Assembly (NCBI GenBank): GCA_964017145.1 | Contig: OZ024842.1 | Coordinates: forward strand, 558,001-622,000 | Source: Agrocybe praecox | Taxonomy: Eukaryota; Basidiomycota; Agaricomycetes; Agaricales; Agrocybaceae | Length of the DNA stretch: 64,000 bases | Direction: 5' to 3' | In this document: positions 183-54,236 of the stretch, piece by piece | Position numbering within the stretch: the stretch's first letter is position 1 | Layout of the letters: each line of letters begins with the position of its first letter | Notes under the pieces: generated by a model | Seen by the model: only the letters and a program-made list of their open reading frames with translations | The model's database searches: none | What the model was told of the DNA's origin: nothing | Translations under genes and position numbers: made by a program

Positions 183-3100
183 TTAATCCTCGGCGCTTTC
201 CTCGGCGCTTTCCTCGTCGCTTTCCGCCATTGGTACAACGCATACTATAAGGCTCGTTATTGGGGCAAAGGAATACAAGTCGATCGGATGGTGTAAATTA
301 CCTTCCAACCAGGTACTGAGTACATTTTCCTCATCAAATTCATGTTTCTAGCGATACAAGTCAGAAACTATATTAGCCACACTATGGGAAAAAATACCTT
401 GAGATAATAGACAACACCACCAGCAAACTGCGGATGTACCAGCAGTTTCTGCCCTATAACCGTATTGAGATAATGGAGAGTTTTCAGGCAGGCAAATATT
501 TTGAGGCTACGGTTTGCATGAACAAATAATTTTTTCAAATAGGGAAAGAAAAAATCCAAATAAAACATGTATTTGGTGTTGGGGTGGTAAACCTCAGATG
601 ACAGGTCTTGCAGAAGAGATTCCAATACGCAAGTTGAAAGTATTTCCTCCATGCCATTAGGAAGACCGTAGGGAGATTCGGACATCCTGTTGATTAAAGC
701 AAAGTAAAATCCTTTCGCGTCGCGATTTAATCGGAAGAGGGACTCTTGAAAATCTCGAGCATGAATCCCATATGGAGGAATCCCATCATTGGACTCGAGG
801 GATTCAAGTTGTTGGTAGGGTAGTGAAAGGATATAAGCAAGATGCTCCTCATCGGAGCTCGGGATATCTGGATAGTAGCAAGTAGAAATTGCCGGAACTA
901 AGTGAGTTTCGTAGATCCGCACCAGACATTCCAATAATTGAGTCCGCGCCTGCAATGATTTAACTGACACTGAGAGAACTGAAGCCAACTCCTCGTTACT
1001 CTGAGAAATACCGCTAATTCAAGAAATATTCTCGATTGAAAATGCTACTCACCAATTGTCGATGTATCCACTCGACAAGTATCTGACATATCTCGAGATC
1101 TAGCAGAGCCCAATCGATATTGTGGAGAGCATCGATAAAAGACAGTACACTTTGGAGGTTCATTGGATCCTGGTTGTATTTGATATCAGAGATTTCGAGC
1201 GTCATGCGAAGAAAGTTTCTATAATTGACATTGAGCGTAATCATGAACCGTAGCATATAGCGCGCAGACATAAAAAAATACTAACTTATCGGGTTCCCAT
1301 AATCCAGAAATCGACTCTGCAGAGGGCGACGACATGTCATCTGAAGTGTCCGATTGGTAGATATAATCTTCGTCATCGTCAGATCCTACTGTGGCACCCA
1401 AGTGTAAGCTTGGCACTTCGGTCTCCTTCGGTGAAACTAACTGCTCATACATGTCCCTTTCATCGGTCACAGAATCAGACAGTACCGTAGGGCAATGTAT
1501 AGCTAGTACCTCCTGAACGTAGTTTATCAACATGCTTTGACAAGTACTCAAACATGCGTCATAAAAACGCAGATGCAGAGGTCCACTTTTTGTCTCGTCC
1601 AAGAGATACGGAAAGAGCCATTCTGTGATATGAATTGTAGTGTGACAGTATAATCTGCCTTCGTACGAAGATGATACTTTGCGATGCGTGCGTAGAAGGC
1701 ACTGATATTCATCGACAAATTGAGCTGCGGATGCAGTTTGGCCTTGGAAAAAGTAGTCTCTGAATTTCCTTAAGCTTGAATTTCCGATGAATACGAATTC
1801 GCAAATTCCTGGATGTTGCAGAAACACATGGACGGGGAGGAAGGAGAGGCATTCAAAACAAAGTTCATAAATGGCGTGGCACAGATCACCGATGGATATA
1901 GTTCGATCTACCTCCTGTTTTTGAAAGAAAGAAAGTCGACAAGGTTAGTACGAATCGAGTTGGAGAATGTGCAGAACTCACTTCCAGGGGCCGTTTAGAA
2001 AAACCTTCTGCGGACAATGCAACACTGTCTAAATGTTGAAGTACGTATGCATGATGGAAGGAGACATGAAGTCCTCTCATACGAAAACTATCGATTCCTT
2101 TTTTCAACTCTATAAAGAACTGGGCTGCGAAATCGTCATCCAGAGCATTTGTCCATGTCACAAAGAAGGTCCAGGTTTTATGACTCAAAGTCACGACGTG
2201 ATCGCTGGACAAGTGACCAGCCTTACTCAGTCAAAAAAACCATTAAATATTGCAAGGACTTACTTCGTATGCTGTTGAGCGATATCCAAGCTTCCAAGAA
2301 GACGATTCAGGTAGAAATCATATACATGCTTGCCAAGTTTGTCGGGGTCCACAGAAAATTCTCTAGACCGGCTGGGGTCTAGAAGAAAGTCTTCAAATGA
2401 CAGGTGTGAGAATGATATTTCGGGTTCGTATGGCCCAAAATATTCAGTAATATCGGGTTCCTTGTCCACTGGAGTTTTTAAATTGACCAGAGAAGCAATC
2501 GCTCGCAAAACTAGCTTGATTTCAGTTGCAGGAACGTCGAAGAGCTCTTCTATAACTTTGGGGCTTGCGTTGACGAGTATCCCGCTCAGAACACGGAGCA
2601 GCATTTCCCGACGTGGATATAACGACAGAACCTTGGTGTATAATCTATCGAGGTCAGAAAATGCTTCTGAACATAACGGTCCAGGTTCGGAGATTATCTC
2701 CAATTGTTGAACTGGATCAGAGAAATCTGAATAATTTCCAACAAATTTGAGGACAGTGGCCGCATAGATAAATTGGCCAGAAGAGTTGCGCACAAAATAT
2801 TCTAAAATATAATCTGAAGGCCATGGACGCGGAACACCTTGCATGATATCTTGATTTTCGTCATAGATTTTTGCGAAACCATCGAATAGATATTTTCTGA
2901 TGTCATTCGAGGCATTGCGAGACTCGCTGAGATCTAAGCGTTTTGTGAACTCCAAAAGAGGGGCGCGATCAAAGGAATCACGAATCCAGAATTCAGGCCG
3001 ACTCGCGATGAGAATTCGGAACGGCAAGTTCGACAGTTTCATCGAGTTTCCGATGAGGGAAAGAATGTCACGCTGAACTTTCGAGGTTTCGCATTCGTCA

Positions 3101-3748
3101 AGGCCGTCGATGATGACTGTGGGGGTATGCGTTGGAAGGGAGGGTAGATGAGATGAAGGTTCAACTATGAGTGAATGTAGCTGAGTGGATATAGTCTTGG
3201 AAGGTAATGTGACATCGTCGGTCATTGCTTTATCCACAAGGGACCTCATACCAGGGATGTTGATCGCAATCTGATATGCCAGAGTTGAGAACAGGAATTT
3301 AGCAAAACCACGTTTCTCGTCTCCCTTTAGAAAGAAAAATGACCCCGCGTATCGTTCACGGTGCAGTTGTCGCAGAAGCTCCGCAATCTTCTGCATAATG
3401 GCTGACTTTCCTGCACCAGCAGGTCCATAAAGCCATAGGACATTTGTTGGTGGATTCGGGTCGTTGATCCATTCTATGATTTGCTCTAAAATCTCTTCGC
3501 GTGTCCCTGGATGACACGTGCCTTGGGGATACCGTTCTGCGGCATCATACATCGCTGAATCGGCTATTGATCGACTTAAGCTTGATAACCCTGTTAGAAA
3601 AAAAGAGTTGTTTGACTGCATTCTAACAGAGTGGAAACTACTTGCCTGGCTCGATCAATCCAGGACTTTGGTGGGCAATAAAGGTCCCACCAGTAACTAA
3701 AAGGTTACCCCCTGGTGCAAACATTGCTTGTCCTTGGAAATCTGACAT
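183..3748 (-). CDS. NACHT NLR-like receptor 1 (NLR1), 8 exons
   Basis: Predicted STAND/NACHT NTPase of the basidiomycete NLR-like group, 1052 residues. My exons, in transcript order: 3646-3748, 2264-3590, 1982-2204, 1286-1914, 1053-1218, 398-1000, 302-347, 183-244; all phases agree. Exon 1 holds only an N-terminal motif (GGNLLVTGGTFIAHQ). Next comes the CHPGTREEI linker, Walker A GPAGAGKS (residues 90-97), Walker B VIIDGLDEC (193-201), sensor SRPE (about 231), then a winged-helix-like stretch ending near SFSHLSFEDFL. The C-terminal half is helical with no WD40 or ankyrin repeats that I can see. The last exon encodes an acidic Glu/Asp/Ser/Ala tail. Intron 1 (3591-3645) uses a GC donor (CAG/GCAAGT); the ordinary GT nearby breaks the frame. 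The third acceptor was chosen because TCCAG (2205-2209) keeps the frame in all four paralogues. Role in non-self recognition or cell death is inferred from the family. Confidence 0.85.
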
Positions 3749-12669: not shown

Positions 12670-15600
12670 TCAGACTTCGCCGCTGGTTACTTGCCTGAGT
12701 AAGCGACTCGTCAGGAATTGAAGACGACAACGTCGTCCTTGTATCAAAGCCTTTACATGAGCTACCGAAATGACTTCTTGCACGGCCGACTTTATTGAAT
12801 CCTCGACAATAGCATCTTGTAGACTTGCGAGCATCAGAGGTTAAGAGCATCCTATGAGCGATGCGAAGGAGATTACTCACGAGGTATCCATTCTAGCCGC
12901 CAGTGATAATTTATAGGTGCCCAAGATTGTCATCATGTCTGCCTTTGACACACCGCCAGTGTCTCCAGTTTGTTGAGTACTTGTTAACAATGTTTGATAA
13001 TATATGTATTCATATTCTTGTCTACGCTTCTTGATAGCTTGATAGTCAATTTTATCAAGCGCACTGTTCAAGCGTTTCAAATCTATGACTCTTCCTGTTC
13101 TTGATTCAGATGTCGATGTCGCAAGTATTGATTGGATATTATGCTCGCGGGGATAGATATTACATTCCAACACCTCAGTTAATCCCTAAAATATTGGAGA
13201 ATCAGCATCCACGTTTCCTGCAGCAGGGAAATGTGATTGTAACGAACGTGTAAAAACTTGCCAATTTGAGGAAAGTCCAAGTATCCCTGTTTAGCATTTA
13301 GCTGCCATAGCTGGTTAAAATTCCTCTTTTCCTGGGGTGAACATTGTGCGAATATTTTAGTAGTCCCAAAGCTCTTTGGAAGAAACACTATTTTACGGGG
13401 TGTCTTAGAGGTATCGGCCTCGATTGGCGTAGGTGTGAATGAGGGAAATGGCGGATTCTCGAGCTGTTGTATGGTTTGTTAGCAGTATTAGAGTTTGCCA
13501 TACTGATGTTGAGCACTATGGTATGCACACTCACCAGGCCAAAGGAAAGACTTCTAAGTTCCTCTACTTGGGGCGAGGATGTACTTATTACGCTCGAGCG
13601 ACTGAGAAAATCTCGGGCTAAATTTCTGGCTTCCTCTGTTCCAACAGTAGCAACGACCTTGAAAAGAAGAGAGACAATAGACTCTAAAAATTTCTTCGTG
13701 GACTGAGGTGCATTTTGGTATCGTGCATCACATCCGTCGGCCGTTATTCTGGCTCCATCGACGAGGAGTCTTTGCACTTCTGCGGGTGCAAAATGCGCAA
13801 CTACACCTTCTTCAATATAGGCCAAGGTGGATAAGATAGAATTCAGAGCGTCCTCTGTGATGCTACTGTCTACAAGGATGCCATGAAGAAACGCAACAAA
13901 CACTGCAGTACGACCACGAATTAAAAACAACTTCGCAATCACTGGGATTCTGGAATGACTGGAATTGGTGTAAGCCCAAGATATTTCGAAATTAATCCCG
14001 CCGAAGGTTGCGTCTTCAATTTTGAGACGGGTGATTTGCTGCTGAAGCTGACCTGGGTAGTGTTCGAGAGCCGGAAATGAATCTCCAATACGCATCTTCA
14101 ATGATAGTAGTATCGCCAAGAGAACTTCCTGTCGAGAGTCATTTGGATACTGAAGCAATAATGACCCGACCATATTGAGTGTGTGAAGCATATTTTGTCC
14201 GCGAAAATATAGGTCCTTATCAGAGCCATGACGTATATTCTTTGGTGCCCAGAGAGCGCAGATCATGTCTGATTGTAGAGAAACGGCAAGACGAGACGCA
14301 CAGCAATTTGCGTACTGCATTAACGACCCGTGATTCATCGCTCTGATAAATCCAATCGAGCTGTAAACCTTTGGATCCCAATTATACCAAGGGGCCAATG
14401 AAACAAGGGACATCCAACCTATTAAGGAGGCAGAACCGCGCTGAGAAGTGGAGGAAATGTCCCCTGTTGTGTCAAGAAGCTTATTTTCAGGGGTGTTGAA
14501 ATAGCTCTCCAATGCAATTGAAAGGAGTTCAGGATTCGAATAAGAGTTTGGATTCATTTTCGTTGCCGCGGTGGTCTTTCGAATCCACTCAGCAACGTCT
14601 GGCAAAATTGTTCTAGGATAATCTTCTGGAAGACTGCCCAAGAGCTGTGAAATTTGCCGCGCCCGAACAGGTGTCAATGATTTGTCAGCTTTCAAGAAGT
14701 TCTGTAAATCGTCGTAAATCGTGCCTGAGAGTTGGCCAAACATGACCTCTGCTTCTCTTGCAACCTCCCATGTGTGGTCGTTTTTGAGTGCGTTGAGTAC
14801 TCCAATTAATTCCTTTGCCCCAAAAAGTCCAATTGTTCCATCCGAGTCGGAGTATGTTGTGTGAGGAAGTATTGACACAATTGCAACAGAGCATCCTCTT
14901 GCGCGTTTGATACGTAGGCTCTCTTCAATAAAGTCGGACTTCGTAAGGGTTTTGAGTAATCCTGTTATTCGATTCAGGAAGGAAACCTGGTCGTCGAGTA
15001 TGATTCCACGAATGATGCGTCCGGCATCTTGATCGGAAGCCAAATAGTCTGGAAGTGCCTGAATAAAGGCCTCCAGGTCTTTGTCGTCAATTATGGACTG
15101 GACGGTCCAAGATATAGCAGCCTGATCGCGGGAGAAGGTGTTCAACATTGCGAGGCTCTCTGGGACCTTATGCATTTCCGTCCGAGCCTGTGCACCCCGT
15201 TGGTTTGAGGATCGAACACTAGAGATTAACCACCAGCATGCTGTGGAGAGGGGTGATCGATACGGAGAATTGTGTATAATCAATGGACCTATTGTCACAG
15301 CCATGTATAAACAAGCAAACAGGGATGTAAGCACTAGAATGATAGTGCCTATTGCCGCGTGAATCGTGAAAAGGAATAGGCTAAGACCAGCAAGGAATAA
15401 GAGCACAGAGGCATGTAATAGGGCTGGAACTCCGTTGACTACTGCATTGACATGATATTCCGTGACTCCAGTGTAAAGATAAGAGCGAATGCGCGCCCTT
15501 GTCAGAAGAGATGATTGACGTCGCACCGCCTGTAGGTAGTATCGAGCCCATTGCTCGACCAATGTTGCGCTGAGCGCCGTAATTATGCTCAGCACCAGAC

Positions 15601-16176
15601 TAATAAACCAAAGTATATTGACGATAACCATTGATGAGGATAGTTTGAATTCTGTTGGCGGAGTAAATGTGATGATTTGTTCCACTTGGGAATTGGAGGT
15701 TGCAAGCTGTTTGTATATCTGTATGAGAATCGCATCCGTGCTGAGGTTTGGATCAGGAGTGAGCTGTTGGTAGCTCTGAATGATAAATGCTGTTATTACC
15801 CCAGCAAAAAGACCAGCCTAAATCGTCTCTTATAGTCAGATCATAATTGAACGTCGAACTTCGTTACACTCACAAAGATCAGAAGCCCATCCATATCACC
15901 TTTCCATCGTTCAACAAGATCCTTGTCGAATTTTTCGGCCTCTGCAACATATATAGACCACAGCTTAGTCGACGGGTCGTCGATAGTATCACTAGGACCA
16001 GTTTCTGAGTGGTCTTGGTTGATATAGCGTTGTCTCTCAGGTACGTGGTGGGTGTTGAATGAACCCCCACTGATTATTACATTTTGAGCCTATTGACAGA
16101 GTATAGCCATCAGATCAAAAGCACACACAGAAAAATAACTCACATCTGAAAAAAACGTGGAGATGGGGTGACTCAT
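12670..16176 (-). CDS. DUF6535-type multi-pass membrane protein with an NLR-like N-terminal motif
   Basis: Six-exon model with consistent phases, 1068 residues: 16144-16176, 15874-16089, 13535-15817, 13248-13463, 12881-13185, 12670-12823. The N terminus reads MSHPISTFFSD then AQNVIISGGSFNTHHVP; the second piece aligns without gaps with the exon 1 motif of the neighbouring NLRs. After EKFDKDLVERWKGDMDGLLIF come four hydrophobic segments: AGLFAGVITAFII (about residue 84), a segment from SMVIVNILWFISLVLSII, and two around LLHASVLLFLAGLSLFLF and IGTIILVLTSLFACLYM. This is the basidiomycete DUF6535 pattern as I know it; its function is not established. A long, mostly helical soluble region follows. 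Weakest choices: the GTTCGT donor at 13247 and the last acceptor near 12824. No frame damage is seen, unlike most neighbours. Confidence 0.75.
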
Positions 16177-16645: not shown

Positions 16646-16687
16646 ATAAGATAGAATTCAGAGCGTCCTCTGTGATTCTACTGTCTA
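16646..16687 (-). pseudogene. 42-base DUF6535 fragment
   Basis: ATAAGATAGAATTCAGAGCG and the following bases repeat 13831-13872 of the DUF6535 gene in the same orientation with one mismatch. The corresponding coding piece is ITEDALNSILSTL. It abuts the broken 3' end of the SQS1-like pseudogene, so a second DUF6535 copy or a rearrangement once reached here. Confidence 0.6.
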
Positions 16688-21619: not shown

Positions 21620-24028
21620 TTGCCTAGGTACCCATACTTGACGTTCACGCACACCCAGCTGCCTTAATCTACGTGGCTCCTCATCCGCGCGAAACCATCC
21701 CCAAATTTGAGCCGTATTTGTTCCTGCAGACCAGTTTGGAAGGGTCAAACTTGGTCTGCATAGTCAGTAGGGAGAGGAGGTCGTGGTGAAGTTTATCAGG
21801 AGGGGTAACGTGGACAGTATCGTTAGGATGAGGTTCTAAAGGTGTGTTTTCTTGCTCCTATCTTTTCTTTTCTCGTGGAATGGGCCATCTTGCGTTCAAC
21901 GCTATCATTCACGTGTATTACTGTGAATAAATGTTTTTCATTGGCTCTGTTTTTCTATCCTCTCTGGACCTCCATTCTCGCGCTTTGTGGGGCTAGCATC
22001 TGTGGAAGAGGAGCCGCAGCATACGTCCGCTTCCTACCTTCAAGCAACCATTTCTTTTCCTTCTCTTTTCGTATACACCGACCTGCGATGTTTCTTAAAA
22101 TTATTTTACTGACAAATTCTCCATTCGTAGACGCTCAAATTGTCCAACTATATGACATCATCGAACCCGACAAATACATCGGTTTACTCATGGAACACGC
22201 CTCTGGAGGCGATTTATTCGACCATATCCTTGCACATCGATACCTGCGCGACACATATGCCGCCAAATTCTTTTACCAACTTATCTCGGGTGTCTGGTAC
22301 ATCAACCAAAAAGAGAATCATGCATCGCGATTCGAAACTGGACCGACAGTCAGCCGAGCGCGTTTGGAAAGACGGTGGAAGATCTAGGGAAGCCAGAGCA
22401 TCACCAAGGAGCAGCGGCAATGCCAACGTTGCGCTGACACCTTCTGGGCCACAGAGCCATCATCCGGAGTCGGGGGGCGAGAGGTCGGCATCGTCCAATG
22501 TTGTTCCTCCAATTGTTACCACCGCCGTCGCTGGTCAGACCAACACCACTGTATCCACGCCCACCCGCAGCCGTTCAACCCAACCTAAACACATCTACGA
22601 GAGCTCGCCCTCGTCACCCGTTACTGGTGTAACCATCAACCACTCTGTATCGCTCCTCACTTCTCCACCCTCTGTCGTTCCCAAGCCGGCTGTTAACAAA
22701 CCTCAGCCAGCCACATCACAGAACAAGGAAAGTCCTGGCTAGAAATATTTCGCTAGCTCTGCTGCGCTGGGTCTGAACAAAGAAGATCTGTTCGCATTTT
22801 GTGTTGGAGCTGCTTCCAACTACCTCTCACCACCCGGTCAATCCAGCCCATGGAGCGTTTAGATATCCCATCCAAGTCGAATACTATTCGGAGTCGAAGG
22901 AACGAGGAAGGAGACAGCCGAACGGAGCTAGGAGGAAGGAGAAGGAGGATCATAAAAGTTCTACGAATGAGAAGGCCGTACCTGGCCTGCCTCCTTCAGC
23001 AGCAGCAGCAGCAGCACCGACGGCTTATCGTGCGCCTGCGGTTCCGAGTGCATTACCCCCAGCGCCAACATGAGGGTAATACTATCACCGTACCAGCTAC
23101 AGCAAAGAATGCCAACACCAGTTTACAACCACTGATGCCCACCGCCATGCCAATCCCACCGGGTGCAGCAGCAAGTTCGACATTTATGATTTCCAACGTG
23201 TTTACATTGTTGTTGAATCCTTCCAGCACCTCGTTTTCACCTACGAACTCGGCCACGTTCTCGTCTCCTTCGCAGGACTTTGGCGATGTGCCGATGAAGG
23301 CGAGCGAGAGGGATGGCAGGCAGGCGTTGACGAGGAAGACGAAGAATGTAATGCAGTGGTTCAGGATCAAGGCAAAGGGCAGGGCAGGGAAGCCTTGCTC
23401 CTTCTTACCCTGTTACGCCTAGCATGGAGGACATTCAGATGTCGATAAAGACAGTCCGCCTAACCAGACGCGGATACCTATTGCGAAGAAGTACAAGATG
23501 GGCTACTCTGCTTCGAGCAGCACCATCAACCAGCCTGGCGAGAAGGATGGCAAGGATCAGCAGCTTACACTTCCCTCTCCATCTGGTACGTTCTCAGCCC
23601 CGACGAGCGGAATGCTTCGTGGGCTGCCGATGAGGAGGCAATCGTCTCCAAGTTGCGTCGGGTGCTCCTCCTGAATTGGCAGCAAAGTCATCCCATGGTC
23701 CTTCAAACACACTGACATTCGATGACGAACACTCCGCCGTCGATGGCGAGCCACTGCCTTCGATCGGTGGGCTTGTAGCATCTGCCAGTATCGGTCCTAT
23801 CCACCTGTTATGTCACATGGACAGGGTGCATTCCTTTTCATCACTGCCTCTGGTTCTGGCGCGGTTGGACCAGCATATGGTGATCCATTGCAGGACGCTA
23901 GGGACGAAGTGCGGTTCAGCGTTGAGCTGACGAGGTTGGATAGGCTGAACAATACGTATAGCTTAGATATTGGAAGGTTGAAGAGAAATTCAAGGAGTTA
24001 TGGGTTTTTGTATGATACATTGAGGCGT
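21620..24028 (+). pseudogene. CAMK-like Ser/Thr kinase pseudogene, copy 1
   Basis: Relic of a kinase with IVQLYDIIEPDKYIGLLMEH, GGDLFDHILAHRYLRDTYAA and KFFYQLISGVWYI (22139-22300), the N-lobe and hinge of a CAMK/SNF1-like kinase. Just after HRDSKL, where the catalytic loop (HRDLKxEN) should follow, the sequence jumps into a Ser/Pro/Thr-rich linker, so the activation loop and C-lobe are gone. The HPNI region is frameshifted at the exon junction near 22130. The C-terminal end EVRFSVELTRLDRL and SYGFLYDTLR (about 23910-24027) is a KA1-like tail. Several stops lie at 23400-23800. Confidence 0.65.
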
Positions 24029-24750
24029 ACGTGATTTTTCTCTCTTTTCTTGTTTTCTTTTTTCTTTTTTCTTCTTCGTTCTTTTCGATCCGCGTTTTCT
24101 GCTGGTGTCAAGACTGGGCTCGTATATCAATACCTTGTGTCTTCTTAATTTCTTTTTCTCGTGTTCTTATTTTTTGTCAGGGTCATCGAACATACAAACT
24201 GATTATTTTATCCCTTTTACAGGCGTGTGGATATTTCGGCTGCTCGTGCCTAGATGGCGAACTTCTCATCCACCATCACCACCACCACCTCTTTATTGTC
24301 GTCGTCGTCATCTATGGACCTATGCCATCCATCCATGACCCAATAATTATGCCCAAACCATGCCTACATACACGCACACGCACATTCACATTCACACTCA
24401 CAAACTCCTTGCGTATGTGTATACGCACCTCACAATAATCGTCATACCTATCCCACCTTTATAATAAACACATAAACTTGCGTGCGCCGCCACATCACAT
24501 TCCATTCTAACTCGTTTGTAACATCGGACCGTCTGACTCCATGGGCATTCGACGATGGTGTCTGGGGGATTCGATCGAAGTGCTGGCTTGGAATTGGAAT
24601 TGGGATCGGCGAAGGTGATCTAGCACGTCCTGGTTGGAGGAGGGGGTGGGAGGAGGAGGGAAATAGGGATATAATCGTCGTCGCTAGGAGGGATAGGTGA
24701 TCCGGAGTGTTGGATAACTGGCGGTCGCAGTTGTATTTGAGGAAGATAGG
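24028..24750. other. kinase 3' flank, duplicated at 47600-48310
   Basis: About 95 percent alike between copies by eye. Contains CAC-rich and pyrimidine-rich runs but no supported exon. Confidence 0.4.
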
Positions 24751-25724
24751 CGAGGTTTTCCTTTTTGTCAAATTACTTTCTGCGACGCGCTTGATCTCAT
24801 TACTTTTCGAATCTTCGATATCGTGGGCCGAATTTCTGTTTTCCGATCTGTGTTTTTTATTTTATTTTTCTCTGTCCCTTCATTCTTCTGATGACTTCCT
24901 TGTGGACCTTGCTGTCCATTCTCTGTTTCTTTCCTTCTTTCAGAAATTATTGTGTCTGTACTTTGAAGGAAGAAAAAAGAATCGACACTTTGCATGATCA
25001 TAGAGGTGATAAAGGAAGGAAGTAGAGGGGACGAAAGGCGGATCACGATAGAAACACGATGACTTGGGTTGAAGGCGATCAATAAATAGAGGAGCCAAGC
25101 CATCCACACAACGGCAGACAGATGGGGGGCGCGAACAAAGAACACAAGTTTTCATGACAGACAGGGAGAGAGTCAGATCAGAGTGAAAGTGGAAGGGAAG
25201 GGAACACAAAGAAAAGCAAAGGTTTCAAGGGCGACAAAACGAACGAGGGGACAACTGTGACGGAAGGGATAGTAGTAAATGGGAGGAGATTGATTGAGGT
25301 GTTCGGAAGCGACAGCAAATACAAAGGAAAACAGCGACAGCTAACAACGCACTCTCAGGAGAGAAAAGATGGTGAAAGAGTGATGATTGATGATGGATGG
25401 ACACAGTAAAATTGATACTACGAGACGGGTGCAGGAAGAGGGGAAGAAGGAGGGAGAAAAGAGAGAAAGGCTAGAGGGGATGTGCGAAGTGAGGAAGCAA
25501 AGAGCCGGAAGGCTGGAAGACGGAGAGCGATGGGAGGCATGTGTGGAAGAAAAAATCGCAGAAGATAAATGGAGAAGGCATTCTGGTGCTTGACAGTGAG
25601 AAACAAAGTAGATGTCTTGGTACCGTGAAGGGGCTGATAACTGGAGACAGAACCCGAGGTGAGGAACGAACAGAGGCAATCCGACGCAAAGCAACAACAC
25701 CCGTACAGGCCTTGACGCGGACGG

Positions 25725-26210
25725 CCATAGTAGGACCAGGAGCAAGACTGATTCGGTTCTCCCATCGCTGTCAAGTGCTACCGGCATCCCCTTGCACACA
25801 ACACCAAAGAGGAGCACGACCGCGCCTGCTGCCCCCCGCTAACTTGTCGGCATTGAAAAATCCAGTAAGGAAGCAAGCTAGGACTGGAACTACGCCACCC
25901 TTTGAAGGCGGCGAAGACGGTGACGAGGAAGGCGAAGATGGGGATTTGAGGCTTATTACTCCACCACCTACACCGCCATTTACTGCCAGAGTGTTTTCTC
26001 TAGCTGGTGCAAACAACGAATACTGTCCTAGTCCTTACGAGACAAATTATCCCGATAACATCACTCCAAGAGGTGGCAAACTAGGTGGTCTTGGTGCAAC
26101 CAGGAGGCGAAAACATGCACCCATGCAACAAGATCAACAGAACGACGATGATTTCAACTCATCAAGCTCGTTGTCGAATTCTCATGGATCCTTCCCTCAT
26201 CAGGGTTATT
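25725..26210 (+). pseudogene. gene X C-terminal fragment, copy A
   Basis: Nucleotide-level match to 63310-63720 of the long gene X relic. It contains NPVRKQARTGTTPPFEGGED and an acidic GEDGDEEGEDGDLRLITP run, followed by Ser/Asn-rich sequence. An extra C near 25833 and other changes break the frame relative to the parent. No promoter or start belongs to it. Confidence 0.6.
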
Positions 26211-26229
26211 TTTTTCGCTACCTTTAACA

Positions 26230-26760
26230 ATGACATTGGTTGGATTAGCATTTAGATTTGCCACGAATTTTTTAAAACTTCCTCCACCTCTTATCGCTTT
26301 CTCCGGATCGCCTCAAGTTCCCGTTCTCTTTTCCCCTTTTAACGACGGCGACATTGGCCTCATCATTGCCTTTGCGTCGGTCGCAACCCCTTTGGCGGGC
26401 TCTTTCCACCGCTACTCTACATCAACGCACTCTTTAATCAAGCCTGACATTCAATTCGTATTGTTTCTCGCACACACCTGGTGACACCGTATCTTGGTCT
26501 CGGTAGCACACCATCCTTCCATACTGGGTTCATACATTTATCGCCCCGGTAGGAGTGTCGGTGGAGACGCTGCTTCACATTAAAATTCCTGCACAAAATT
26601 CGCCCCTAGGATTCGAATTATCTCGCCCATAACTATGTACATTCATACATTACTTTAGACGATAGAGCACGCTCGAGAGCGTGCTTAATTTCAGTACTTA
26701 CTAGCTATAGATAAATAATTAACCGTAACACAAGTGAAATAAAAAGAAATTGAATTGTTG
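26230..26760. other. non-coding stretch between the X fragment and the NLR2 flank
   Basis: No supported exon. An 84-codon plus-strand frame at 26230-26484 is present identically in the other copy, which only reflects the duplication. Confidence 0.4.
26666..26685. repeat. perfect 9-bp hairpin, copy A
   Basis: AGCACGCTC, two bases, GAGCGTGCT. Lies about 450 bases past the NLR2 stop, between the X fragment and the NLR flank. Identical copy at 50227-50246. Could be a terminator-like hairpin or the end of a lost element. Confidence 0.6.
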
Positions 26761-27135
26761 AAAAGTCATAGTAGTAGCCACCCCATTCTTTACATAGGTT
26801 TGTGGTAGCACGACCTTGAATTCTAAGAGGGTATATTCTTTGATTGATTCATGCTTTGTATTATAGAAATACCTAACAACTTGAGATCCACCCGTAAACT
26901 ACATCCAAAAATCCATCTTCATATCAGGGTGTTTCTGGCCTTGTAGTCGAAAAATTCTGTCGGACAGTATGTAGAAAGCCATGGAATGGAGCAGGGAGCA
27001 TATTTTTGATGTCGAATTCGATTTTGGGGCGGTGAACGACCATGTGAGCAACTTGATCCCAGAAGTCCAAACGGGGAGCACATTGAACAGGACAACGGGT
27101 TGCACTCGTAAGATTTGACAACAAACTCGTGCTCC

Positions 27136-30100
27136 TTAATCCTCGTCCCCTTCCTCGTTAATTTCGTTGTCCATTTCCTCGTCCCTTTCCTCGTCCCTTT
27201 TCGCCGTTGGTATAACGTATCCTATAAGGCTCGTTATTGGAGAAAAGGAATACAAATCGATCGAATGGCGTAAATTACCTTCCAACCAAGTACTGAGTAC
27301 ATTTTCCTCGTCAAATTTATGTTTCTAGCGGTACAAGTCAGAAACTATATTAGCCACACTATGGAAAAAAAAATACCTTGAGATAATAGACAATATCACT
27401 AGCAAGCGGAAGTACCGTCAGTCTCTTCCCTATAACCGTATTGAGATAATGGAGAGTTTTCAGGCAGGCAAATATTTTGAGGCTACGGTTTGCATGAACA
27501 AATAACCCTTTAAAATGGGGGGGCAGAGCATCCAAACGAACTTCATCATCCAAACGACTGTAGTAAACGTCGTCTGACAGGTTGTGCAGAAGAGATTCCA
27601 ATACACAAGTTGAAAGTTTTTTTTCCATGCCATTAGGAAGACTGTAGCGAGATTCAGACAATATTTTGATTAAAGCATAATGAAATCCCTTCATGTTGAG
27701 ACTCAACCCGTATAGTCGATAAACGCCTGAATTATGAATCCCATATGGAGGAATTTCATCATCGAACTCGAGGGGTTCAAGCTGTTGGTAGAGTGGTGAA
27801 AAGATATAAGCAAGATGCTCCTCATCGGAGCTCGGGATATCTGGATAGTAGCAAGTAGAAATTTCCGGAACTAAGTGAGTTTCGTAGTTCCACACCAGAC
27901 ATTTCAATAATTGAGTTTTTGCCTGTAGTGATTTAACTGACACCGAGAGAATTGAAGCCAAGTCCTCGTTGCTCTGAGAAATACCGCTATTTCAAGAAGT
28001 ATTCTCGATCGAAAATTCAAAATGTTACTCACCAATTGTCGATGTATCCACTCGACAAGTATCCGACATATCCCGAAATCTAGCACAATCCAATTGATAT
28101 TGTGGAGAGCATCGATAAAAGACAGTACACTTTGAAGATTCATTGGATCCTGGTTGTATTTGATATCAGCGTTTTCGAGCGTCGTGGAAAGAAAGTATCT
28201 ATAGTTGACATTGAGCGTAATCATGAACTGTAGCAAATAGCGCGCAGGCGTAATAAAAAAACTAACCTGTCTTTTTGCTGTGATTTTTCTGTGCCGCCCG
28301 AGTATAATGTCAGCGCTTTGGCCTCCTTCGGTGAAACCAACTCCTCATACACATCCATTTCCTCGGTCACAGAATCAGACTGTGCCGTGGAACGAACGCG
28401 AGCTAGTTTTGCCTGAACGTAGTTTATCAACATGCTTCCACAAGTACTCAAACATGCGTCACGAAAACGCAGATGCAGAGGTCCACGTTTTCTCTCGCCC
28501 AAGCCTAGATAGGGAGAGAGCGCTTCTGCGATATGAATTGTAGTTCGACAGTGTAATCCTACGCCTGAAGATAATACTCCGCGATGCGTGCGTAGAAAGC
28601 ACTGATATTCATCGATAAATTGAATTGCGGATGCAGTTTGGCCTTGGAAAAAGTCGTCTTTGAATTCGCTTAAGCTTGAATCTTCGTCCCATTCGAATAT
28701 GAACTTGCAAAGTCCTGGACGTAGCAGAAACACGTGGACAGGGAGGCCGGAGAGGCATTCAAAAGAAAGTTCCTGAATGGCGTTGCATACATCGGCGATG
28801 GGTATAGTTCGATCTTTCAGCTGGTACTAAAAGAAAGTCGACAAAGTCGGTACGAATCGAGTTGGGGAATGTGCAGAACTTACCTTCAGGCGCCGTTCGA
28901 TATTTCGTAAGATTAATGCCGCACTGTCTAAATGTTGAAGCACGTATGCATAATGGAAGGAGACATGAAGTCCTCTCATACGAAAACTATCGATTGCGTT
29001 TTTCAACTCTATGACGAACTGGGCCGCGAAATAGTCAGGCTGAAGAAGTGGCCAATCCTTAAGGAAGGACCAGGTGTTCAGACTCAAATCCAATATGTGA
29101 TCCCTGGACAAGTGATTAGCCTTACAGTCAAAAAATCCATTGAATATTGCAAGGTCTTACTTTGTTTGCTGTTGAGCGATATCCAAGCTTTTGAGAAGAC
29201 GATTGAGGTAGAAATCATATACATACTTGTGGACTTTCTTGAGATCCACAGAAAATTCTCTAGACCGGCTGCGGTCTTCAAGAAAGTCTTTAAATGACAG
29301 GTGCGAGAATGATATTTTGGTTTCATATAGCCCAAAATATTCTGCAATATTGGGATCCCATTCCGTTGGAGTTTTTAAATTGACTAGAGAGGTAATCGCG
29401 CGTAAAACCATCTTGATTTCAGTTGCAGGAACATCGAAGAGCTCTTCTATAACTTTGGCGTTTGCATTGATGAGTATCCCGCTCAGAACATGGAGCAGCA
29501 TTTCCCGACGTGGATATAACGACAGAATCATGGTGTATAATCTATCGAGGTCAGAAAATGCTTCTGAGCGTAAAGGTCCAGGTTGGGAGATTATCTCCAA
29601 TTGTTGAACTGGATCAGAAAAATTGGAATGATTCCCAACAAATTTGAGAACAGTGGCCGCATAGATAAATTGGCCAGAGGAGTTGTCCACAAAATATTCT
29701 AAATTATGAAGTGGAGGCCATGGACGCGGAACACCTTGCATGATATCTTGATTTTCGTCATAGATTTTTGCGAAGCCATCGAACAGATATTTTCTGATAT
29801 CATTCGAGGCATTGCGAGACTCGCTCAGATCCAACCGTTTTGTGGACTCCAAAAGAGGGGCGCGATCAAAAGAATCACGAATCCAGAATTCAGGGCGACT
29901 CGCAATGAGAATTCGGAACGGCAAGCTGGACAGTTTCATTGAGTTTCCGATGAGGGAAAGAATGTCACGCTGAACTTGAGAGGTTTCACATTCATCAAGG
30001 CCGTCGATGATGACTGTGGGGGTATGCGTTGGAAGGGAGGGTAGATGAAGTGAAGGTTCAACTATGAGCGAATGTAGCTGAGTGGATATAATTTTGGATG

Positions 30101-30646
30101 GTAATTTGTCGTCGTCGGTCATTGCTTTATTCACAAGGGACCTCATACCAGGGATGTTGACCGCAATCTGATATGCTAAAGTCGAGAACAGGAATTTAGC
30201 AAAACCACGTTTCTCGTCTCCCTTTAGAAAGAAAAACGACCCCGCGTATCGTTCACGGTACAGTTGTCGCAGAAGCTCCGCAATCTTCTGCATGATGGCT
30301 GACTTTCCTGCACCAGCAGGTCCATAAAGCCATAGGATATTTGTTGGTGGATTCGGGTCGTTGATCCATTCTATGATTTGCTCTAAAATCTCCTCGCGTG
30401 TCCCCGGATGACACGTGCCTTGGGGATACCGTTCTGCGGCATCATACATCGCCGAATCCGCTATTGATCGACTTAAGCTTGATAACCCTGTTAGAAAAAA
30501 AAGAGTTGTTAGACTGCACTCCAACAGAGTCGAAACTACTTGCCTGGCTCGACCAATCCAGGTTTTTGGTTGACAGTAAAGGTCCCACCAGTAACTAAAA
30601 GGTTGCCCCCTGGGGCAAACATTGCTTGTCCTTGAAAATCTGACAT
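27136..30646 (-). CDS. NACHT NLR-like receptor 2 (NLR2), 8 exons
   Basis: Paralogue of NLR1, 1034 residues. Exons: 30544-30646, 29161-30487, 28884-29103, 28267-28826, 28033-28198, 27377-27973, 27279-27324, 27136-27221; phases agree throughout. N-terminal motif GGNLLVTGGTFTVNQ; Walker A GPAGAGKS, Walker B VIIDGLDEC and sensor SRPE are intact. Two bases lost near the exon 3 acceptor remove the upstream GAG/T choice, so only the TCCAG acceptor at 29104 gives an open frame. The acidic Asp/Glu insert seen in NLR1 and NLR4 exon 4 is absent. The acidic tail is the longest of the four (ends KRDEERDEE...GDED). The GC donor of intron 1 is conserved. The right flank of the gene carries only a beta promoter remnant. 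Confidence 0.85.
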
Positions 30647-40400: not shown

Positions 40401-43400
40401 TTAATCCTCGTCACGTTCCACCGTTGGTACAGTGCATCCTATAAGGCTTGTTATTGGAGAAAAGGAATACAAATCGATCGGATGGCGTAAATTACCTTCC
40501 AACCAAGTACTGAGTACATTTTCCTCGTCAAAGTCATGTTTCTAGCGGTACAAGTCAGAAACTATATTAGCCACACCATGGGGAAAAAATACCTGGAGAT
40601 AATAGACGACACCACTAGCAAACTGCGAAAGTACCAGCAGTCTCTTCCCCATAACCGTATTGAGATAATGGAGAGTTTTCAGGCAGGCAAATATTTCAAG
40701 GCTACGGTTTGCATGAACAAATAATGTTTTCAAATAGGGAGAGAGATCATCAAAATAATTCCTGAATTTCCCGCTGGTATGGTAAACCTCGGATGACAAC
40801 TCGTACAGAAGAGATTCCAATACGCAAGTTGAAAGTATTTTTTCCATGCCATTAGGAAAACTGTAACGAGTTTCAGACATCGTTTTGATTAAGGCAAAAT
40901 AAAATTCTTTCGTGTGGTCATTCAATATGAAGCCGTATTGTTGATGATGTCGAGGATGAATCCGATATGGAGGAATTAAACGATTAGACCGGAGATATTC
41001 AAGCTGTTGGTAGGGGGGTAGTGAAAGGATATAAGCAAGATACTCCTCGTCGTCGGAGCTCGGAATATTTGGACAGTAGCAAGTAGAAATTGCCGGAACT
41101 AAGCGAGTTTCGTATATCCGCACGAGACAGTCCAATAATTGTGTTCTCGCCTGCAATGATTCAACCGACACCGAGAGAATTGAAGCCAAGTCCTCGTTGC
41201 ACTGGAAAATACCGCTGTTTAAAGAACTATTCTTGATTCAAAATTCAAAATGTTACTCACCAATTGTCGATGTATCCACTCGACAAGTAATTCACATATA
41301 CTAAAATCTAGCATAATCCTATCGATACTGTGGAGAGCATCGATAAAAGACAGTACACTTTGGAGGTTCATTGGATCCTGGTTGTATTTGATATGAGAGA
41401 TTTTGAGCGTCATGCGAACAAAGTCTCTATAGTTGACAATGATCGAAATCATGAACTGTAGCATATAGTGCGCAGGTATAATAAAAAAACTAACCTGTCC
41501 CTTTGCCGTGATTCTACTGTGCCACGCGAGTATAACGTCAGCGCTTTGGCCTCCTTCGGTGAAACCTGCTCATACACGTTCATTTCCTCGGTCACAGAAT
41601 TAGAGTGTGCTGTAGAACGAGCGCGAGCTAGTTTTGCCTGAACGTAGTTTATCAACATGCTTCCACAAGTACTCAAACATGCGTCACAAAAACGCAGATG
41701 CAGAGGTCCACTGTTTGTCTCGTCCAAGAGATACGGGGAGAGCACTTCTGCGATATGAATTATAGTTTGACAGTGTAGTATTCCTTCGTACGAAGACGAT
41801 ACTTGGCGATACGTGCGTAGAAAGCACTGATATTCATCGACAAATTGAGCTGCGGATGCAGTTTGGCATGGGAAAAAGTCGTCTCTGAAATCGCTTAAGC
41901 TTGAATTTCCGTCGAATATGAACCTGCAAAGTCCTGGACGTCGCAGAAACACATGGACGGGGAGGCCGGAGAGGCATTCAAAAGAAAGTTCCTGAATGGC
42001 GTAGCGTACATCATTGATGGGTATAGTTTGATCTATCCGCTGTTTTTGAAAACAAAGAAAGTCGACAAGGTTAGTACGAATTGAGTGGGGGAATGTGCAG
42101 AACTCACGTTCAGGCGCCGTTCAATATTCCGTAAGAACAATGCAACACTGTTTAAATGTTGAAGTACGTATCCATGATGGGAGGAGACATGAAGTCCTCT
42201 CATACGAAAACTATCGATTCCTTTTTTCAAGTCTATGACGAACTGGGCTCCGAAATCAGTACCCCGATCAGCTCTCCATTCCCCAAAGAAGGACCAGGTT
42301 TCATGACTCAAATTCAAGATGTGATCCCTGGACAAGGGATCAGCCCTACTCAAAGTCAAAAAAGCCATTAAATATTGCAAGGACTTACTTCGTATGCTGT
42401 TGAGCGATATCGAAGCTTTTGAGAAGACGATTGAGGTAGAAATCATATACATGCTTGTGAACTTTCTTCAGATCCACACAAAATTCTCTAGACCGGCTGG
42501 GGTCTTCGAGAAAGTCTTTGAATGACAGGTGCGAGAATGATATTTCGGGTTCATATGGCCTAAAATATTGAGCAATATCGGGATCCTCTTCCACTAGAGT
42601 TTTTAAATTGACCAGAGAGGTAATCGCTCGTAAAACTAGCTTGATTTCAGTTGGAGGAACGGCGAAGAGCTCTTCTATAACTTTGGCGTTTGCGTTGACG
42701 AGGATCCCGCTCAGAACACGGAGAAGCATTTCCCGACGTGGATATAACGACAGAATCGTGGTGTATAATGTATCGAGGTCAGAAAATGCTTCTGAGCGTA
42801 AAGGTCCAGGTTGAGAGATTATCTCCAATTGTTGAACTGGATCAGAAAAATCGGAATGATTTCCAACAAATTTGAGAACAGTGGCCGCATAGATAAATTG
42901 GCCAGAAGAGTTGTCCACAAAATATTCTAAAATATGATATGGAGGCCATGGACGGGGAACACCTTGCATAATATCTTGATTTTCGTCATAGATTTTTGCG
43001 AAGCCATCGAACAGATATTTTCTGATATCATTCGAGGCATTGCGAGACTCGCTGAGATCCAACCGTTTTGTGAACTCCAAAAGAGGGGCGCGATCAAAGG
43101 AATCACGAATCCAGAATTCAGGGCGACTCGCGATGAGAATTCGGAACGGCAGGTTGGACGTTTTCATCGAGTTTCCAATGAGGGAAAGAATGTCACGCTG
43201 AACTTTCGAGGTTTCGCATTCGTCAAGGCCATCAATGATGACTGCGGGCGTATGCGTTGGAAGCGAGGGTAGATGAAGTGAAGGCTCAACTATGAGTGAA
43301 CGTAGCTGAGTGGATATAGTTTTATATGGTAATGTGACATCGTCAGACATTGCTTTGTCCACAAGGGACCTCATACCAGGGATGTTGATCGCAATTTGAT

Positions 43401-43872
43401 ATGCCAAAGTCGAGAACAGAAGTTTAGCAAAACCACGTTTCTCGTTTCCCTTTAGAAAGAAAAACGACCCCGCGTATCGTTCACGGTACAGTTGTCGCAG
43501 ACGCTCTGCAATATTCTGCATAATGGCTGACTTTCCTGCACCAGCAGGTCCATAAAGCCATAGCACATTTGTTGATGGATTCGGGTCGTTGATCCATTCT
43601 ATGATTTGCTCTAAAATCTCCTCGCGTGTCCCTGGATGACACGTGCCTTGGGGGTACCGTTCCGCGGAATCATGAATTGCTGAAAGAGCTATTGATTGTC
43701 TCAAACTTGATAACCCTGCTAGAAAAAAGGGTTGTTGGACTGCACTCCAACAGAGTGGAAACTACTTGCCTGGCTCGATCAATCCTGGACTTTGGTTGGC
43801 AATAAAGGTCCCACCAGTAACTAAAAAGTTGCTCCCTGGGGGAAACATTGCTTGTCCTTGGAAATCTGTCAT
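40401..43872 (-). CDS. NACHT NLR-like receptor 3 (NLR3), 8 exons
   Basis: Paralogue, 1017 residues. Exons: 43770-43872, 42389-43715, 42108-42327, 41495-42039, 41261-41426, 40593-41201, 40496-40541, 40401-40438; all phases agree. N-terminal motif GSNFLVTGGTFIANQ, then ASLRQSIALSAIH, where its relatives have LSRSIADSAMY. Walker A GPAGAGKS, Walker B VIIDGLDEC and SRPE are intact. Exon 4 lacks the acidic insert. The tail is short (VERDED). Exon 6 is the longest of the four, with one more residue in the segment after PPYRIH. Left neighbour: family M fragment. Right neighbour: an inverted SQS1 fragment, then beta copy 4, so its upstream region was cut relative to NLR1/2/4. Confidence 0.85.
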
Positions 43873-49285: not shown

Positions 49286-49771
49286 CCATAGTAGGACCAG
49301 GAGCAAGACTGATTCGGTTCTCCCATCGCTGTCAAGTGCTACCGGCATCCCCTTGCACACAACACCAAAGAGGAGCACGACCGCGCCTGCTGCCCCCCGC
49401 TAACTTGTCGGCATTGAAAAATCCAGTAAGGAAGCAAGCTAGGACTGGAACTACGCCACCCTTTGAAGGCGGCGAAGACGGTGACGAGGAAGGCGAAGAT
49501 GGGGATTTGAGGCTTATTACTCCACCACCTACACCGCCATTTACTGCCAGAGTGTTTTCTCTAGCTGGTGCAAACAACGAATACTGTCCTAGTCCTTACG
49601 AGACAAATTATCCCGATAACATCACTCCAAGAGGTGGCAAACTAGGTGGTCTTGGTGCAACCAGGAGGCGAAAACATGCACCCATGCAACAAGATCAACA
49701 GAACGACGATGATTTCAACTCATCAAGCTCGTTGTCGAATTCTCATGGATCCTTCCCTCATCAGGGTTATT
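49286..49771 (+). pseudogene. gene X C-terminal fragment, copy B
   Basis: Identical, as far as I can see, to 25725-26210, carrying the same frame lesions relative to the 63.3 kb parent. It was therefore already broken when it was duplicated. Confidence 0.6.
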
Positions 49772-50712: not shown

Positions 50713-53700
50713 TTACGCTATTGGTGCAGTGCATCCTATAAGGTTCGTTATTGGAGCAAAGGAATACAAATCGATCGAATGGCATAAATTACCTTTCAAC
50801 CAAGTACTGAGTATATTTTCCTCGTCAAATTGATGTTCCTAGCGGTACAAGTCAGAAAACTGTATTAGCCACACTATGGAAAAAAATACCTTGAGATAAT
50901 AGACAATATCACCAGCAAACCGCGAAGGTACTAGCAGTTTCTTTCCTATAACCGTATTAAGATAATGGAGAGTTTTCAGGCAGGCAAATATTTTAACGCT
51001 ATGGTTTGCATGAACGAATAATTTTCTCAAATAGGGGAAGAGATCATCCAAATAAATCCAGTACTCGGCGTTGGAGTGGTAAACCTCGGCTGACAGGTCT
51101 TGCAGAAGAGATTCTGCTACGCAAGTTGAAAGTGTTTTTTCCATGCCATTAGGAAGGCTGTAGCGACGTTCAAATAACATTTTGATTAAAGCGAATTGAA
51201 ATCCTTTCTTGAGGTCATTCAATATGGAGAGGTATTGTCGATGATATTGAGCATGAATCCCATATGGAGGAATTTTATCATTGGACTCGAGGGGTTCAAG
51301 CTGTTGGTAGGGTAGTGAAAGGATATAAGCAAGATGCTCCTCGTCGGAGCTCGCGATATCTGGATAGTAGCGGGTGGAGATTTCCGGAACTAAGTGAGTT
51401 TCGTAGATCCGCACCAGACATTCCAATAATTGAATTCTCGCCTGCCGTGATCCAACTGTCACCGAGAGAATTGAACCCAGGTCCTCGTTTCTCTGAGATA
51501 TACCGCTATTTCAAGAAGTATTCTCGATCGAAAATTCAAAATGTTACTCACCAATTGTCGATGTACCCATTCGACAAGTATCTCACATATCTCGACATCT
51601 AGCACAATCCAATCGATATTGTGGAGAGCATCGATAAAAGACAGTACACTTTGGAGGTTCATTGGATCCTGGTTGTATTTGATATCAGACATTTTGAGCG
51701 TCATGCGAAGAAAGTCTCTATAGTTGACATTGAGTGTAATCATGAATTGTAGCATATAGCGCACAGGCAAAATAAAAAAACTAACTTGTCGCTTTCCCGT
51801 AATTCAGAAATTGACTTTGCAGAGACCAACGAGATATCATCTGAAGGGTCTGATTGGTAGATGTAATCTTCGTCATCGTCAGATTCTACTGTGGCACCCA
51901 AGTGTAAACCCGGCGCTTCGGCCTCCATCGGTGAAACCAACTCCTCATCCACGTCCATTTCCTCGGTCACAGAATCGGACCGTGCCGTAGAATGAAAGTG
52001 AGCTAGGGCCTCCTGAGCGTAGTTTACCAACATGCTTCGACAAGTACTCAAGCATGCATCACAAAAACGCAGATACAGAGGTCCACTTTTTGTCTCGTCC
52101 AGGAGATACGGAGAGAGCCCTTCTGTGATATGAATTGTGGTTCGACAGTGCAATATTTCTCCGTACGATGATGTTTCGCGATACGTGCGTAGAAAGCACT
52201 GATATTCATCGACGAATTGAGCTGCAGATGCAGTTTGGCCTGGGAAAAAGTTGTTTCTGAATTCGCTTAAACTTGAATTTCCGTCGAATACAAACTTGCA
52301 AAGTCCTGGATGTTGCAGAAACACGTGGACGGGGAGGCCGGAGAGGCATTCAAAAGAAAGTTCCTGAATGGCGTGGCGTACATCATCGATCGGTATAATT
52401 GGATCTATCAGCGGTTGCTTTGGCTAAAAGAAAGTCGATAAGGTTAGTACTAATCGAGTTGTGGAATGTGCAGAACTCACCTTCAGGTGCCGTTCAATAC
52501 TTCGTAAGGACCGTGCAGCACTGTCCAAATGCTGAAGTACGTATGCATGATGGAAGGAGACATGAAGTCCTCTCATACGAAAAATATCGATTCCTTTTTT
52601 CAAGTCTATGACGAACTGGTCTGCGGAATCTTCATCCTGAGTATTTGACCATTTCTCAAAGAAGGACCAGGTGTAGAGACTCAAATCCAAGATGTGATCG
52701 CTGGACAAGTGATCAGCCTTACTCAAAATCAAAAAAGCCATTAAAAATTGCAAGGACTTACTTCGTATGCTGTTGAGAAATATCCAAGCTTCCGAGAAGA
52801 AGATTGAGGTAGAAATCATATACATGCTTGTAAACTGTCTTCAGATCCACAGAAAATTCTCTAGACCGCTTGAGGTCTTCAAGAAAGTCTTTAAATGACA
52901 GGTGCAAGAATGATATTTCGGTTTCGCATGCCCCAAAAAATTCTGCAATATCGGCATCCCATTCCACTGGAGTTTTTAAATTGACCAGAGAGGCAATCTC
53001 TCGTAAAACCATCTTGATTTCAGTTGCAGGAACGTCGAAGACCTCTTCTATGACTTTGGCGTTTGCGTTGACGAGTATCCCGCTCAGAACACGAAGCAGC
53101 ATTTCCCGACGTGGATATGACGACAGAATCATGCTGTATAATCTATCGAGGTCAGAAAATGCTTCTGAACGTGAAGGTCCAGGTTGGGAGATTATCTCCA
53201 ATTGTTGAACTGGATCAGAGACATCGGAATGATTTCCAACAAATTTGAGGACAGTGGCCGCATAGATAAATTGACCAGAGGAGTTGTCCACAAAATATTC
53301 TAAAATGTGATGTGGAGGCCATGGATGCGGAACACCTTGCATGATATCTTGATTTTCGTCATAGATTTTTGCGAAGCCATCGCAAAGATATTTTCTGATA
53401 TCATTCGAGGCATTGGGAGACTCGCTGAGATCCAACCGTTTTGTGGACTCTAAAAGAGGGGCGCGATCAAAGCAATCACGAATCCAGAATTCAGGACGAC
53501 TCGCGATCAGAATTCGGAATGGCAAGTTGGACAGTCTAATCGAGTTTCCGATGAGGGAAAGAATATCACGCTGAACTTTCGAGGTTTCGCATTCGTCAAG
53601 GCCGTCGATGATGATTGTGGGGGTATGCGTTGGAAGGGAGGGTAGATGAGATGAAGGTTCAATTATGAGCGACTGTAGCTGAGTGGATATATTTTTGGAT

Positions 53701-54236
53701 GGTAATGTGACGTCGTCTGACATTGCTTTATCCACAAGGGACCTCATATCAGGGATGTTGATCGCAATCTGATATGCCAAAGTCGAGAACAGGAATTTAG
53801 CAAAACCGCGTTTCTCGTCTCCCTTTAGAAAGAAAAACGACCCTGCGTATCGTTTACGATGTAGTTGTCGCAGAAGCTCTGCAATAGTCTGCATAATGGC
53901 TGACTTTCCTGCACCAGCAGGTCCATAAAGCCATAGGACATTTGTTGGTGGATTCGGGTCGTTGATCCATTCTATGATTTGCTCTAAAATCTCCTCGCGT
54001 GTCCCTGGATGACACGTGCCTTGGGAATACCGTTCTGCGGAATCATACATCGCTGAATCCGCTATTGATCGACTTAAGCTTGATAACCCTGTTAGAAAAA
54101 AAGAGTTGTTAGAGTGAACTCCAACAGAGTGGAAACTACTCTACTTGCCTGAGTCGATCGGTGCGATCGGTGCAGGACTTTGGTTGTTGACAAACATCCC
54201 GCCGGTAATTACAACATTGCTCACTGAGGGAAACAT
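50713..54236 (-). CDS. NACHT NLR-like receptor 4 (NLR4), 8 exons
   Basis: Paralogue, 1036 residues. Exons: 54149-54236, 52762-54088, 52481-52700, 51786-52423, 51552-51717, 50890-51492, 50793-50838, 50713-50735; phases agree. The start used by the other three (at the position of 54260) is AGG here, so translation should begin at the internal ATG eight codons later. The motif survives: MFPSVSNVVITGGMFVNNQS. Walker A GPAGAGKS, Walker B IIIDGLDEC and SRPE are intact. Exon 4 has the acidic insert (ESDDDEDYIYQSD) as in NLR1. An early TAA removes the acidic tail (ends CTAPIA). The GC donor of intron 1 is conserved although the sequence around it has changed. A truncated beta copy lies upstream. Confidence 0.83.

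Follow-up and report, generated by a model that had tools for sequence, protein, structure and literature searches.

The question raised by this locus is whether a predicted membrane protein, encoded among NLR genes, carries the N-terminal motif of these NLRs and may act as their partner. The window analyzed here (64,000 nucleotides; C3:558,001-622,000 of a 59-Mb genome) covers a portion of a tandem NPHP3_N/NACHT NLR array, and the four NLRs inside the window are encoded on the same strand (Table 1). All four carry a NACHT domain, and self-comparison of the window DNA indicated that the array units are 82-89% alike. A 3.2-kb repeat (window 23965-27152 and 47531-50714) is conserved at 96.9% identity, which is closer than the surrounding NLR units. 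The closest named relatives of the NLRs are found in Galerina, Psilocybe, Phlegmacium, and Hebeloma. When the 5' ends of 14 NLRs from C3:502-738 kb were examined (4 from the window, 10 fetched), each of them carried the motif [ILVMF].GG.F. NLR4 has AGG where the other copies have the start ATG, and its translation may begin at MFPSVS. Between NLR1 and NLR2 lies the gene of a DUF6535 protein, which is called DUF6535-A in this paper.

Table 1. Coordinates of the NLRs, of the DUF6535-A gene and of the motif carriers of the GDVGIIT family (window positions unless a contig is given)
Feature	Position	Strand	Remarks
NLR1 (NPHP3_N/NACHT), N-terminal and nucleotide-binding part	2260..3748	-	start 3748, intron 3645..3591, motif core 3706..3680
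NLR2 (NPHP3_N/NACHT)	29157..30646	-	motif core 30604..30578
NLR3 (NPHP3_N/NACHT)	42385..43872	-	motif core 43830..43804
NLR4 (NPHP3_N/NACHT)	52758..54236	-	motif core 54218..54192
DUF6535-A exon 1 (MSHPISTFFSD)	16144..16176	-	ATG at 16176; provides the F of the motif
DUF6535-A intron 1, GT-AG	16090..16143	-	acceptor two codons ahead of the motif core
DUF6535-A exon 2 (AQNVIISGGSF...)	15874..16089	-	motif, linker, beginning of the DUF6535 domain
DUF6535-A motif core NVIISGGSF	16057..16083	-	residues 14-22 of the spliced protein
DUF6535-A intron 2	15818..15873	-	
DUF6535-A exon 3, 809 aa	13388..15817	-	DUF6535 domain, hydrophobic helices, then helical solenoid; 3' end provisional
GDVGIIT motif carriers	L054 (C3:2,860,500); C11:2,604,463, 2,634,865, 2,637,715, 2,642,871		

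Gene structure and N-terminal motif of DUF6535-A

The gene model of DUF6535-A was derived from the sequence alone, and its predicted exon 1, GT-AG intron and exon 2 reproduce the reading of the original prediction. That reading had placed the 3' end at 12670, and we found that the frame of exon 3 closes at 13388. Exon 3 matched the DUF6535 profile (PF20153) at profile positions 30-177 with an E-value of 5e-41 (140.9 bits vs. a curated cut-off of 23.9), and the first positions of the profile are encoded in exon 2. This was the sole profile match of exon 3 at E-values up to 1, and neither a HeLo, HeLo-like or MLKL-like domain nor any other domain was found in this search. A single Met, located within the domain, is present in the exon 2 frame, which is closed by a stop codon directly ahead of the exon. 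These two features suggest that, barring a later acceptor, the motif is translated. In the spliced protein, the whole motif occupies residues 9-22, which is an N-terminal position. Among the window matches, no further copy was detected downstream in the DUF6535-A frame, and a C-terminal location of the motif was not observed. A 42-bp copy of DUF6535-A coding DNA (13831-13872) is present upstream of the gene (window 16646-16687, 97.6% identity).

Hydropathy analysis of the membrane part of exon 3 yielded three hydrophobic stretches. The third of them is long enough for two crossings, and thus about four membrane helices are predicted. When this part was modelled alone, six helices were obtained at a pLDDT of 84.7. 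The model of a Lentinula DUF6535 homologue (mean pLDDT 82.7) consists of a disordered N-terminus, long N-terminal helices and a helical solenoid, and no clearly related solved structure was found.

The motif shared by DUF6535-A and the NLRs has the form F-x4-N-x2-[IV]-x-G-G-x-F. A gapless likeness between the DUF6535 N-terminus and the first exons of the NLRs had been claimed before, and our alignments bear this out: FSDAQNVIISGGSFNTHHVP of DUF6535-A is identical to NLR1 at 7 and to NLR4 at 8 of 20 positions. For quantification of this similarity, a position matrix was built from 27 NLR motifs and 431 segments of 1.3 kb served as null. DUF6535-A scored 22.6 bits unspliced and 27.2 bits spliced, and the latter value is in the range of the NLR motifs under leave-one-out conditions (19.5-59.9 bits). 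The top score of the null segments was 6.9 bits, and this difference excludes chance as explanation for the DUF6535-A motif. Taken together, the matrix score and the sequence-derived gene model place the same motif on a separate protein. A protein database search with the N-terminal 46 residues returned one candidate and no hit.

Distribution of the motif in the genome and in the DUF6535 family

We searched the 59 Mb as DNA on both strands with the strict pattern N-x-hydrophobic-[ILVM]-x-G-G-x-F and obtained 149 places (lists of 55 and 94), compared with 28 for the reversed control pattern. From the latter number, an expectation of about 7e-5 strict matches follows for the 300 bp ahead of any one gene. 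The matches were compared with 272 NLR places, a lower bound obtained by joining NACHT, NPHP3_N and one-protein searches. It can be seen that 96 of the 149 matches have an NLR place on the same strand at most 1.4 kb downstream, and none was found on the control side. By coordinates, a further two matches lie before DUF6535 genes and five before members of a family that we call GDVGIIT, and 46 are unassigned. Conversely, 96 of the 272 NLR places are marked by the strict pattern, and variants such as that of L039 escape it. When 20 motif places, which were picked by eye and are thus a non-random sample, were read as sequence, 17 of them were NLRs, L055 was a likely cut-off NLR, L054 belonged to the GDVGIIT family and L053 was a non-NLR locus. 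Two of these 17 NLRs (L065, L066) are among the 46 matches left over by coordinates. These data indicate that the motif is an NLR module genome-wide.

Three observations concern individual places. L055 (C3:3,042,618) combines an NLR-like first exon and the motif, and no NACHT frame was found in the 1.3 kb read; it is probably a cut-off NLR. At L053 (C3:188,124), the sequence FFTRVPNVVITGGQFVAVSGNH with its SGN ending is located upstream of a non-NLR reading frame. Identical 27-base matches encoding NSIIAGGYF are present at C4:3,958,605, C9:622,097, C9:2,605,485, and C10:2,412,976 with no listed NLR downstream, and these four places perhaps represent a repeat element.

In other species, the N-terminal motif was observed in 14 of 28 NCBI-named NLR relatives (loose expression, counted by eye), and several of the motif-less rows are partial models. 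Among all NLR relatives listed, 22 of 120 matched the loose expression, one of them (P0150) away from the N-terminus; 92 of these 120 rows are metagenome ORFs, which possibly lack first exons. The motif is typical of NLRs in this genome and in related Agaricales.

For the DUF6535 family, we counted 31 places (35 search rows, from which four second pieces of listed genes were dropped by hand). The strict motif was present at most 1.5 kb from the listed coordinate at two of these places, DUF6535-A and a paralogue, DUF6535-B (C3:519,332, L022), both of which are located inside the C3 NLR array. DUF6535-B involves NSVITGGIF at the corresponding place, just past a probable intron, and in both genes an acceptor-like site directly precedes the motif. 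When the 31 upstream segments were scanned with the matrix, DUF6535-A stood alone. DUF6535-B scored 1.9 bits, a value that 29 of the 431 null segments reach, and it thus appears to carry the motif more weakly than DUF6535-A. Another DUF6535 place (L026) scored 6.9 bits, and this match, which spans a stop codon and equals the best null segment, was left uncounted.

DUF6535-A and DUF6535-B are mutually nearest and share 67% of the residues over exon 3. Next by score follows L019 (34% over 329 residues), and values of 37-42% were obtained for some others over shorter stretches. The dN/dS ratio of A vs. B was 0.33, and purifying selection acts on both genes. The motif residues N, I, G, G, and F are kept in the two proteins, and the linker that connects motif and domain could be aligned only by opening large gaps, in a comparison that uses a DUF6535-B exon with a guessed splice. 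Among the 120 listed DUF6535 homologues (125 were found), the first 150 residues contained no motif ahead of the domain, and three loose matches were all located within the domain; some of these homologue models have their start within the domain, and short first exons can escape automatic annotation. The absence of the motif from the listed homologues suggests that the clade of A and B likely acquired it in this lineage. Since the two copies possibly go back to one event, the association amounts to one clade in one genome.

The GDVGIIT family, named for its sequence GVSIGDVGIIT..., carries the motif in 5 of 33 members, as NIVI[TN]GGQF or NVVINGGQF about 215 bp upstream. Two scanned pieces of L054 gave no Pfam match. 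GDVGIIT is a second non-NLR family with a clade-limited gain of the motif and another candidate partner. Its members do not cluster near NLRs (3, 6, and 10 of 32 within 15, 25, and 60 kb; p 0.20-0.62). Concerning conventional effector domains, the MLKL_N profile (PF22215) identified 7 places, and comparison of coordinates revealed none with a listed motif match in the preceding 1.4 kb. The HeLo profile (PF14479) gave no match in this genome, but it was also silent in control genomes, so that absence is not shown.

The original prediction paired DUF6535-A with the NLRs of its own cluster. This private relation did not hold, because the motif is found ahead of no fewer than 96 NLRs and of five GDVGIIT genes and because the DUF6535-A motif appears to fit remote NLR families no worse than the NLRs of its own array. 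By BLOSUM sum, the best five of 32 loci compared with DUF6535-A were NLRs other than those of the local array. With a matrix of remote NLRs (17 rows) DUF6535-A scored 29.1 bits vs. 12.5 bits with a matrix of the local array (10 rows), values that are a rough guide only because the matrix depths are unequal and that leave out rows L039 and L055. On these grounds, a private receptor/effector pair was rejected.

Genomic neighbourhood and comparison with known systems

A test for neighbourhood of motif-matched DUF6535 and NLR genes beyond chance had also been proposed. Here, we found that 5, 7, and 13 of the 31 DUF6535 places are located within 15, 25, and 60 kb of an NLR. Uniform placement gave p-values of 0.20, 0.12, and 0.02 for these distances and rotation gave 0.26, 0.20, and 0.05, calculated with an NLR list of 272 places that is a lower bound and with estimated extents of C9, C11, C12, and C13. 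An excess of neighbours is thus not clearly visible, and these placement tests do not support DUF6535 as a general NLR neighbour. Inside the array, the two motif-bearing copies have an NLR domain at a distance of 7 and 12 kb (12 kb in the case of DUF6535-A).

For comparison with known systems, we used published work on such motifs and on DUF6535 (PMC9815663, PMC12261475, PMC12881547, PMC4344463, PMC5485727, PMC12387923). Wojciechowski et al. (2022; PMC9815663) describe the agaricomycete NLR motif group NLR05/08/22/29/44. Its 689 sequences make it the largest group of amyloid-like NLR motifs on record for basidiomycetes. Compared by the features named in the text of that paper, the motif described here probably belongs to this group. 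It shares with it a very N-terminal position, short length and occurrence on NACHT-bearing agaricomycete NLRs that are present in many copies per genome. The three hydrophobic residues and the C-terminal G[DN] of the published description agree with the NLR relatives from Hebeloma, Galerina, and Crassisporium, whereas most window motifs do not involve G[DN]. For this group, the published table gives zero neighbours and zero effectors, and the underlying scans covered C-termini. The same paper mentions that in Fibularhizoctonia the C-termini of BaMLKL proteins have a pattern in common with NLRs, some of which carry NLR22, that HeLo proteins bearing HET-s motifs are encoded next to NLRs of this group in Gymnopus, and that a BaMLKL is fused to NLR05 in Laccaria. 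According to these reports, the group is not wholly without partners, but the links are tentative. In contrast to them, the motif described here is located N-terminally on a DUF6535 protein.

In the Podospora NWD2/HET-S system, an NLR with a short N-terminal motif is likewise accompanied by a protein from the same region that bears the motif, and HET-S acts on membranes. However, HET-S carries its motif C-terminally, behind the HeLo domain, and its gene is located 0.6 kb from nwd2 (PMC4344463, PMC5485727). The N-terminal HET-S motif assumed in the original prediction was therefore wrong, and the layout of DUF6535-A differs from the cited model. Here, the motif is N-terminal, the protein is a DUF6535 protein, 12 kb separate the gene from the nearest NLR domain and many NLRs are involved. 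For the PP motif, a single class connects NLRs to more than one type of effector, and an effector may act for several NLRs (PMC5485727); that system uses a different motif and its effectors have known cell-death domains. Such motifs are described for NLR N-termini and effector C-termini (PMC12261475), and the papers compared favour HeLo or MLKL-like effectors. In PMC12387923, a DUF6535 gene is listed in an expression table. Our literature search, which mostly covered papers available without subscription, found no report on DUF6535 as NLR partner. Within its own family, DUF6535-A is a clear PF20153 member, and it differs from the 120 listed homologues by the motif before the domain.

Possible roles of the DUF6535-A motif

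The reading that we favour, tentatively and at slightly less than an even chance, is that the DUF6535-A clade gained a homotypic NLR motif and that its products are recruited or activated by motif-bearing NLRs. Among the 31 DUF6535 places, the motif is present on the two array copies only, which is consistent with a membrane protein having been recruited to an NLR pathway. The clade-limited gain of the motif in GDVGIIT is in line with this reading. The weak matrix score of DUF6535-B, the DUF6535 genes not being clearly near NLRs, the good fit of the DUF6535-A motif to remote NLRs and its N-terminal position speak against it. Ligand-bound NLRs would oligomerise and thereby gather their N-terminal motifs. 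The motif cluster would then bind or template its counterpart, which the membrane-resident DUF6535 protein bears on a flexible N-terminal tail. Clustering of the helical membrane domain might alter membrane permeability or otherwise trigger a response. This scheme would require direct contact between NLR and DUF6535 protein, and amyloid-like assembly and membrane execution are suggested by analogy to the ascomycete systems. Many NLRs could share DUF6535-A as partner, an arrangement that PMC5485727 allows for one effector and several NLRs. The receptor/effector pairing originally proposed is partly supported: the motif is real, typical of NLRs and present at 2 of 31 DUF6535 places. The private pair and the N-terminal HET-S model had to be given up, and a general linkage to NLRs is not supported.

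A different role is conceivable, though we consider it unlikely. The motif may serve Agaricales proteins in general as an N-terminal module for self-assembly or targeting, with which DUF6535-A clusters or places itself and does not act as NLR effector; the protein could then be a scaffold, a guarded target or an independent sensor. Such a module would explain why 5 of 33 GDVGIIT members and the non-NLR locus L053 carry the motif, and it is consistent with the lack of any local NLR motif preferred by DUF6535-A and with DUF6535 genes in general not being NLR neighbours. However, 96 of the 149 strict matches precede NLRs when about 28 are expected by chance, so that few carriers are non-NLR genes, though 46 matches are unassigned. 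Moreover, the motif is confined within the DUF6535 family to two copies inside an NLR array.

We regard it as improbable that array recombination captured a motif-encoding stretch, which was then kept as a passenger with no signalling role. The array is repetitive (units 82-89% alike, one 3.2-kb repeat at 97%) and one clade is affected, which speaks for such an event. In contrast, among the matches listed, the 5' region of DUF6535-A resembled neither the 30 motif loci compared nor any other part of the window at the DNA level (best E 0.057), and its sole strong DNA match, L022, is coding DNA of the paralogue and does not cover the motif. An intron separates the motif from its leading F and the window NLRs do not have this intron. 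In addition, the key motif residues are kept in A and B when the linker has diverged. Recent exon capture from an NLR was rejected, since no such DNA similarity was present among the matches listed (best E 0.057).

Accidental resemblance of a beta-prone N-terminus to the motif, or a wrong gene model, is very improbable: the model is derived from sequence, the motif is short and DUF6535-B is weak by matrix, but 27.2 bits compare with a null maximum of 6.9, exon 2 offers no alternative start and an acceptor-like site precedes the motif in both paralogues.

If NLRs recruit DUF6535-A, as we tentatively prefer, an N-terminal motif on a membrane protein provides a concrete candidate partner for an NLR motif group with no tabulated effector. 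The DUF6535-A case suggests that the scans for effectors, which were carried out on C-termini, should be repeated on N-termini. DUF6535 is a large family, and partnership with NLRs would be its first functional hypothesis.
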